Shown here piece by piece: positions 39,219 to 40,907 of a stretch of DNA of 64,000 nt. The DNA is from Bacteroidales bacterium (lineage in GTDB: Bacteria > Bacteroidota > Bacteroidia > Bacteroidales > UBA932): contig JAEESO010000004.1 in the NCBI GenBank assembly GCA_016286385.1, positions 1 to 64,000 on the forward strand, read 5' to 3'. The position numbers and the translations under genes were made by a program. The notes under the pieces were generated by a model that worked only from the letters and a program-made list of their open reading frames with translations, did no database searches and was not told the DNA's origin. Numbering within the stretch: position 1 is the first letter of the stretch; each line of letters starts with the position of its first letter.

Positions 39219-39991
39219 TGAAAAGGCTCTTTGCGCTTGTGGCCTTCATGGTGGCCGTTATGCCGCTGAATGCCCAGCGCAGAGATTCCGTCTACACCTC
39301 ATCTGAACAGTTTAAGGTTACAAAACTGATTGCCCCCGTGTCCCTTATGGGCGTGGGGGCAGTCTGTGCTTTTACCCCGGCCATCCACAGCGGTATGGAT
39401 ATGGAGGTAAGGGGATGGGCCCTTGCAAATAACGGGGGAGTATACAACCTTCCCATTATGGACTGCCCGGAGACATATCTTCAGTATGTGCCGTCGGCTG
39501 CCTACGGAATAGCGGCCCTCTGTGGGGCGGGGAAGCACAGCCTCCCGGAGCAATTTGTTGCAGGGGTTACTGCATTTGGGCTGATGCTTGCCAGCACCCA
39601 GGCCATAAAATATGCGTCACACGTCACACGCCCCAATGACAACCCCCGTTCCTTCCCTTCAGGCCACACTGCAACAGCCTTTATGGGTGCGGAGCTTGTA
39701 AGGCTTGAATATGGCATTTGGTGGGGTCTGGCTGCGTATTCCGTTGCTGGAGCCACGGCCTTTCTCCGCGTATGGAACAACTGGCACTGGACCTCTGACG
39801 TAATTGCAGGCGCAGGCGTAGGCATCCTCAGCGCCAACGCCGCATATTGGCTTCTTCCGCTGGAGAGGAAGCTCTTCAGCATGGATTCCAAGCTTGCCGG
39901 AGCCACCCACTACCAGTGGCAGGCTCTTCCTTATGCAGCATCAACTCCAGTTGGTGCCAGTTATGGACTTACTCTTGCTGTGCAATGGTAG
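39218..39991 (+). CDS. PAP2-family membrane-associated phosphatase
   Basis: 257 residues with a signal peptide (LFALVAFMVAVMPLNAQ). The three PAP2 motifs are present: KYASHVTRP (K-x6-RP), FPSGHTATAF (PSGH) and NNWHWTSDVIAGAGVG (SRx5HxxxD variant with H and D kept). Such enzymes hydrolyse phosphatidate, undecaprenyl pyrophosphate or lipid A phosphates in the periplasm; the substrate here is not deducible. It overlaps yidC by 1 nt upstream and yggS by 7 nt downstream. Confidence 0.9.
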   Translation: MKRLFALVAFMVAVMPLNAQRRDSVYTSSEQFKVTKLIAPVSLMGVGAVCAFTPAIHSGMDMEVRGWALANNGGVYNLPIMDCPETYLQYVPSAAYGIAALCGAGKHSLPEQFVAGVTAFGLMLASTQAIKYASHVTRPNDNPRSFPSGHTATAFMGAELVRLEYGIWWGLAAYSVAGATAFLRVWNNWHWTSDVIAGAGVGILSANAAYWLLPLERKLFSMDSKLAGATHYQWQALPYAASTPVGASYGLTLAVQW

Positions 39992-40788
39992 CAAAGGCTC
40001 TTGAATCACTTCGCGCCGCTCTCCCCGCCGGGGTAGAACTGGTTGCCGTTTCCAAGTTCCATCCTGTAGAGCGCCTTATGGAAGCATATGACGCCGGTCA
40101 GCGCGTCTTTGCCGAGAGCCGTCCCCAGGAACTTGCCGCAAAGGTGCCCCAGATGCCGTCTGACGTCAAGTGGCATTTTATCGGCCATCTCCAGACCAAT
40201 AAACTGAAGCTGGTCCTCCCTTACGTGGACCTGGTCCAGTCCGTGGATTCCCTTCACCTCCTTCAGGCTATAAACGCCTGGGGCGCCACCAACGGCCGCA
40301 TCATCAACGTCCTTCTGGAACTCCACCTTGGTGCGGAGGACACCAAGCAGGGCTTCTCCGCGGAGGAGATTCTCTCTGTTGTCAGTTGGGCAGGCACACC
40401 CTCTGAAACCCATGGCCACCCTCGGCCGTGTAAGAGGGAGGGGCCCGCAGACTGGAGGGCCAGTGAGCAAGCTTGCTTGGTCACTGGCACTGCAGGCTGT
40501 GGGAGGGGCCTGAGCGAAGCGAAGGAGGTTTCAGAGGGTGTGCCAGCCCAACTGAAGAATGTCAGAATCTGCGGGCTCATGGGGATGGCAACCAATACAG
40601 ATGATATGGCTGTGGTGGAAAGGGACTTTGAGCGTATTGAGAGGCTGTTTCTTGAGATCAGGGAGATGGGAATACCTGGTTTTGATGAGCTATCCATCGG
40701 CATGTCCGGAGACTGGCCCGTGGCAGTGCGTCATCACGCCACAATGGTTCGTATCGGCACCGATATCTTTGGCCCGCGGGAATATTAG
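39985..40788 (+). CDS. yggS: PLP homeostasis protein (YggS/YBL036C family) interrupted in frame by a palindromic element
   Basis: 267 residues from the ATG at 39985, 7 nt inside the PAP2 gene; the ORF-track start at 39847 is antisense-like extension into the previous gene. The PLP lysine is in LVAVSKFHPVE, followed by WHFIGHLQTNK, then after a gap NVRICGLMGMATNTDD and LSIGMSGDWPVAV...GTDIFGPREY, as in YggS. Residues ~133-190, between the first half and NVRICG, are foreign: they are encoded by a 174-bp element with inverted ends. Without them the protein would be about 209 residues, close to the family norm of ~220-230. YggS binds PLP and buffers B6 pools. Whether this copy still folds is unknown. 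Confidence 0.88.
   Translation: MVAKALESLRAALPAGVELVAVSKFHPVERLMEAYDAGQRVFAESRPQELAAKVPQMPSDVKWHFIGHLQTNKLKLVLPYVDLVQSVDSLHLLQAINAWGATNGRIINVLLELHLGAEDTKQGFSAEEILSVVSWAGTPSETHGHPRPCKREGPADWRASEQACLVTGTAGCGRGLSEAKEVSEGVPAQLKNVRICGLMGMATNTDDMAVVERDFERIERLFLEIREMGIPGFDELSIGMSGDWPVAVRHHATMVRIGTDIFGPREY
40382..40555. repeat. 174-bp palindromic element with 29-bp inverted ends, in frame inside yggS
   Basis: The left end TCAGTTGGGCAGGCACACCC and the right end, read in reverse complement, match at 28 of 29 positions (40382-40410 and 40527-40555). The centre holds another palindrome, CCAGTGA...TCACTGG. The length is a multiple of three and the frame stays open, also on the other strand. It resembles a MITE or a coding-sequence palindromic element. 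Confidence 0.9.
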
Positions 40789-40824
40789 CTGTGGGGCTAA
40801 CTTGCTTATTTACAGATATTTATA

Positions 40825-40860
40825 CAAAAACGTCTACCATGTTTCAGGTAGACGTTTTTA
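40825..40860. terminator. Bidirectional terminator between yggS and the V-ATPase operon
   Basis: AAAACGTCTACC pairs with GGTAGACGTTTT around a 6-nt loop. A-rich and T-rich flanks make it functional on both strands. It lies 37 nt after yggS. Confidence 0.88.
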
Positions 40861-40907
40861 TGTAAGCGCTTAATTGTCAATCTTTTACATCCACGCTGCA
40901 GCTTCGA

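Follow-up and report, generated by a model that had tools for sequence, protein, structure and literature searches.

The 174-bp palindrome that interrupts yggS in this Bacteroidales genome is one copy of a family of palindromic elements, inserted in frame and in a translation-compatible manner in unrelated protein-coding genes. The copies have a small hairpin core in common, and each is enclosed by long complementary arms private to its site; the arms of orthologous copies evolve in a mirrored fashion, cores flip between arms and the same protein loops are reused. The family probably represents a non-autonomous mobile element of rumen and gut Bacteroidales, in which the core would be copied and the outer arms made anew at each site.

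The yggS copy

The features of this copy are given below. Positions are those of the window, i.e. the whole stretch of 64 000 nucleotides that was analysed.

39985..40788, + strand: yggS, of the PLP homeostasis protein family, 267 codons, the reading frame continuing across the element; TIGR00044 at 150.8 bits, PF01168; PDB homologues 6kzw, 5nlc and 1w8g
40382..40555, + strand: whole palindromic element, family F1, with its core on the coding strand of yggS
40382..40410, + strand: 5' arm, 29 nt, private to the yggS site; only the orthologous copy of genome G175 has the same arm
40411..40430, + strand: first core hairpin, CATGGCCACCCTCGGCCGTG; GCCACCCTCGGC does not change across 34 aligned copies, while the flanking pairs do
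40431..40446, + strand: conserved linker TAAGAGGGAGGGGCCC, whose TAA closes one of the core's reading frames
40444..40503, + strand: variable middle hairpin, longer here than is usual
40501..40508, + strand: conserved GGGAGGGG
40509..40526, + strand: small hairpin, the third of the core, CCTGAGCGAAGCGAAGGA; most copies have TCGCGAAGCGA
40527..40555, + strand: 3' arm, complementary to the 5' arm

The original prediction of a palindrome of 174 bp (3 × 58) at 40382–40555, with 29-bp arms paired at 28 of 29 positions and an internal hairpin between them, was confirmed. The element is exceptionally stable compared with dinucleotide shuffles, both as RNA (−115 against −73.6 kcal/mol, z = −8.8) and folded as DNA (z = −11). 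Downstream of yggS, positions 40820–40865 of the window contain an inverted repeat of 19 bp, paired at 17 of 19 positions and accompanied by T-runs, which is likely to be an ordinary terminator.

As predicted, the element splits the PLP-binding protein with neither stop nor frameshift: the match to TIGR00044 (YggS family, cut-off 106) falls in two stretches, one on each side of the insert. Query residues 129–189 are spanned by about eight residues in the PDB homologues, and alignment with orthologues, including those of the same genus, gives about 50 extra residues. The sequence gained is therefore closer to 150 bp than to the 174 bp first proposed, a figure that holds for the palindrome only; the remainder of the palindrome overlaps native codons. 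The extra residues are absent from most relatives; together with the other copies described below, this means that neither of the two grounds originally stated for rejecting the idea applies. In an AlphaFold2 model computed with the insert present, the barrel is kept and most residues have pLDDT above 90, with the insert (residues 139–186) below 50, between the helix 126–136 and the strand 193–200.

Family members and their distribution

Other copies of the element were found both in this genome (G000) and in other rumen and gut Bacteroidales. The search of G000 recovered 22 copies, 17 of family F1 and five of a sister family, F2, which has a related layout. Of 150 genomes sampled from the taxonomic family, 12 contain the pattern GAGGGGCCC-N4..34-GGGAGGGG, with 20 matches in G000 and 33 in G053; the same pattern reversed, used as a control, gave none across the 150 genomes. 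When 84 980 species genomes were scanned, the matches listed came mostly from rumen and gut Bacteroidales MAGs, and in all 172 of 194 distinct hits carry inverted arms beside the core. Matches in GC-rich Proteobacteria were judged to be due to chance, at most one of ten such matches having even a weak inverted repeat; the other matches are likewise few and have no convincing arms.

Alignment of 34 copies shows no change in GCCACCCTCGGC, the AGAGGGAGGGGCCC linker or GGGAGGGG; variation is found instead in the pairs flanking the first hairpin and in the middle hairpin, with pairing mostly kept. The two GGGAGGGG tracts recall a putative G-quadruplex. In F2, GTAG adjoins a G-rich stretch. Neither the yggS element nor eight loci matched an Rfam family at its gathering score. 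No match to the element was detected in phages, and PHROGs gave no match of note with the insert peptides; three weak Azospirillum matches among plasmids were attributed to chance, and the single viral contig matched holds GC-rich sequence repeated in tandem and not the element.

Private and paired arms

Over 106 copies, the arms of about 27 bp are 96 per cent complementary within a copy, as against 41 per cent identical between copies. Pairing by position (57 copies) is mostly 89–100 per cent as far as position 25, with a dip to 72 per cent at position 6; it falls to 58 per cent at position 28 and to background beyond about 29, indicating a fairly fixed stem length. Sequence information in the same 57 copies is confined to a few inner positions. 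The separation of core and arm is clearest in G053, where copies with near-perfect arms and cores 95–99 per cent identical have, in many pairs, outer arms of 0–57 per cent identity, and inner 10 nt that are 70–80 per cent alike. Nearly identical cores with unrelated outer arms are most easily explained if the core moves with a short inner arm and the outer arm is copied inverted at the site. One G053 subfamily has arms common to several sites, which may reflect either element-borne arms or landing in a repeated target.

Comparison with empty sites designates the native arm clearly in tilS (the 5' arm, no shuffle being as good) and suggestively in some yggS and murB cases. For yggS, a first reading of the 5' arm as native was dropped, since the comparison with locus L212 favours the 3' arm. 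The comparisons with empty sites, in which most relatives are strongly diverged, revealed no target-site duplication.

When orthologous copies are compared, 46 of 54–58 substitutions in the arms have a mirrored counterpart (13.8 expected; 0 of 20 000 permutations reach this), a count in which the ribF G175 and ygiQ L129/L160 pairs may be separate insertions, mirrored by construction. In single loci, mirrored changes amount to four of 4–5 in CYTH, four of 4–5 in folP (G175/G176) and six of six in ligA.

These mirrored changes also fit an alternative in which the element carries its complete arms with it, as a MITE does, the parental 27-bp arms diverging fast and being kept paired by template switching in the hairpin. 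The fixed arm length, the weak consensus over the 20 innermost nucleotides and the arms shared within the G053 subfamily agree with this alternative as well. It would require arm turnover far exceeding that of the core to account for unrelated outer arms on nearly identical cores, and we consider it rather unlikely. Our preferred reading remains that of a mobile core with outer arms made at each site.

Turnover at orthologous sites

The same insertion has been inherited at orthologous yggS, ygiQ, truA and MFS sites. At CYTH, ligA, SAM-MTase and folP, the core is flipped between arms that remain significantly similar, and both orientations are in frame. At truB, tilS and murB, the same loop contains a different family or unrelated arms; a possible persistence of arm homology through replacement of F1 by F2 was rejected at these three loci, which show no excess similarity; independent insertions into a common loop were therefore assumed there.

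The core flips seen at several loci between conserved arms, together with the maintained pairing of the arms, would be expected of an insert selected for a function, for example a hairpin with a regulatory role or an invertible segment whose phase variation exchanges one peptide for another. However, presence, family and orientation of the element all differ between close species, and five frames are in use, so that no peptide is conserved; a selected function is thus improbable.

Several other repeats were observed at these loci. In ribF of G000 (L005) and G176 (L309), a second small palindrome, GTCATTCCCGGCCTGACCGGGAATC (VIPGLTGNP), lies in frame and adjoins the F1 copy; ribF of G175 (L296) has a repeat of the TGTCATTCTGAGCG type in its place. 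Further small palindromic repeats (TGTCATTTCGAGCG..., CCCGGTCAGG.CGGG) occupy the loops of truA in G178 (L325) and of the MFS gene in G168 and G175 (L112, L286), and these two loops thus collect several repeat families. Inverted repeats devoid of an F1 or F2 core are present at element sites in truA of G168 (L108), the MFS gene of G154 (L118) and tilS of G168 (L114); they are possibly remnants or further core families. The SAM methyltransferase gene of G176 (L304) carries a tandem GGTGGACCAGGTCCA array, in frame, at the site of F1 in G000.

In-frame placement

Of the 22 copies in this genome, 16 are intragenic and all 16 are in frame; the remaining six lie between intact genes. The host genes, identified by protein-family profiles where scanned and otherwise read from the sequence, are yggS, dapF, ribF, ligA, ygiQ, folP, trmB, truB, tilS, truA, murB, murE (in two contig-end versions) and the genes for a SAM methyltransferase, a CYTH protein and an MFS transporter. 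The murE copies on the two contig ends (L008, L009) are near-identical, with element arms that differ; they probably represent two co-binned strains rather than a duplication (contamination, 5.6 per cent). Empty orthologues were found for 12 genes, in which alignment reveals the extra segment, of some tens of residues in genes other than yggS. In the close relatives G175 and G176, all 25 testable sites are in frame, a 26th being cut by a contig end, and no gene-breaking copy was found among the 22 copies here and the testable sites of these two relatives. In other genomes, copies are found in RsmH, AroB, AroK, MiaB, ApbE and other proteins.

Five frames are used (two forward, three reverse). 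These are all the stop-free frames of the core; the one blocked by TAA is never used. The use of all five open frames indicates that it is the open gene, and not the encoded peptide, that is selected.

The very stable fold and the location in conserved housekeeping genes recall hairpins that are removed from the mRNA like an intron or skipped by the ribosome like a mitochondrial byp. Such processing would not require the frame-keeping and the avoidance of the stop-blocked frame seen in every testable intragenic copy, and the core is tolerated in both orientations without any Rfam match; we judge it very unlikely. An artefact of metagenome assembly, in the form of spurious hairpins or chimaeras, is hardly credible even though the genomes are mainly MAGs and contigs end inside or beside hairpins at L052, L062 and L300 (which suggests assembly breaks at the element), because identical insertions are present in independent assemblies (yggS L001/L300, ygiQ L013/L288, truA L021/L287/L315) and frames are never broken.

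Host enzymes such as MurB, MurE, DapF, LigA, TruA and TruB show the extent to which random inserts are tolerated in core enzymes, and turnover of the element illustrates the recurrent rewriting of enzyme loops. Annotators should bear in mind that mobile DNA can account for additional segments in Bacteroidales enzymes and that these hairpins may interrupt contigs.

Proposed mechanism

The private but matched arms raise the question of how a mobile element gets arms copied from its own site. In the reading that we favour, the unit recognized and copied would be the conserved core of three small hairpins. It would be enclosed by a stem of about 27 bp, of which the inner 10 bp or so (CTCYNGAAACC) may loosely be the element's own; the outer 17 bp or so, presumably of target origin, would be picked up anew wherever the element lands, with one arm produced by inverted copying of the other. 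As the core is free of stops in five of six frames, frame-keeping insertions would survive in genes and frame-breaking ones would be lost. The insert would be translated as some 40–60 residues located in loops and probably disordered. A helper enzyme would be expected to act in trans. In its full form, this scheme is put forward tentatively: an element that carries only the hairpin core, builds terminal inverted repeats from about 17 bp of target, keeps its arms matched and flips its core. We know of no case in which transposition results in an inverted instead of a direct target duplication. After insertion, template switching in the hairpin might homogenize the arms, as proposed for the coding palindromes of nematomorphs (PMC6649704); such switching would explain both the mirrored arm changes and the core flips.

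The search for a mobilizing enzyme, directed at the Y1 transposase family, linked none to the element. Y1/RAYT transposases were rejected as candidates, given that Y1 genes occur both with and without F1/F2. The Y1 genes of G000, G175, G176 and G053 were examined with their flanks, and the six regions scanned contain other, unrelated palindromes; a single F1 copy (L327) lies near a Y1 gene, about 1.1 kb outside it. At the Y1 loci L328 and L332 (in G000 and G175), the transposase genes are flanked by tandem arrays of another repeat, in inverted orientation on either side.

Comparison with known systems

Rickettsia palindromic elements (RPEs) were originally proposed as the nearest parallel, and the resemblance holds for behaviour: in both cases, a mobile palindrome is inserted in frame in unrelated housekeeping protein genes. 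It does not extend to shared arm sequence, a conserved peptide or decaying arms. Copies of an RPE family share sequence, palindrome arms included, whereas the Bacteroidales arms are only 41 per cent alike between copies and the core alone is shared. RPEs are mobile repeats of about 150 bp, found in frame in unrelated metabolic genes, with a conserved encoded peptide reported (PMC10969869); the Bacteroidales element, in contrast, is read in five frames on both strands and has no conserved peptide. RPE arms are reported to lose their identity over time (PMC6649704), unlike the mirrored changes seen here. The element thus works like an RPE, but does not match RPEs in the conserved peptide and the arm decay.

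Among small bacterial repeats, REP/RAYT systems and their TIRs include small palindromes, at times intragenic, with GTAG or CGTC tags (PMC3733652). F2 resembles them in having GTAG. REPs differ in being 20–40 bp long with family-wide sequence, and the RAYT-like genes examined are flanked by other palindromes and do not track F1/F2 in their presence. Bacterial MITEs such as ERIC and RU are short non-autonomous repeats, some with ORFs fused in frame to genes (PMC2759123, PMC10969869); they share terminal inverted repeats of 15–30 bp (PMC3733652), whereas the terminal arms described here are not common to the copies.

Two mitochondrial systems are also comparable (PMC6649704). The byp elements of Magnusiomyces, cited there, are palindromic hairpins interrupting coding genes; they are bypassed and untranslated, unlike the testable intragenic copies of Bacteroidales, which always keep the frame. 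In Nematomorpha, long locus-specific inverted repeats lie in coding genes and are kept matched, for which repeat conversion by template switching was proposed. Locus-specific matched arms maintained over evolution are common to both systems. However, both nematomorph arms encode conserved native protein, and we know of no conserved core described for them, whereas the Bacteroidales element is a dispersed family marked by a conserved core and adds residues to its hosts.

In agreement with the original prediction, we found no description of such an element in Bacteroidales in the open-access literature; an earlier account outside open access is possible. In-frame palindromic elements have so far been reported mainly from Rickettsia, and gut Bacteroidales provide an independent case on a larger scale.
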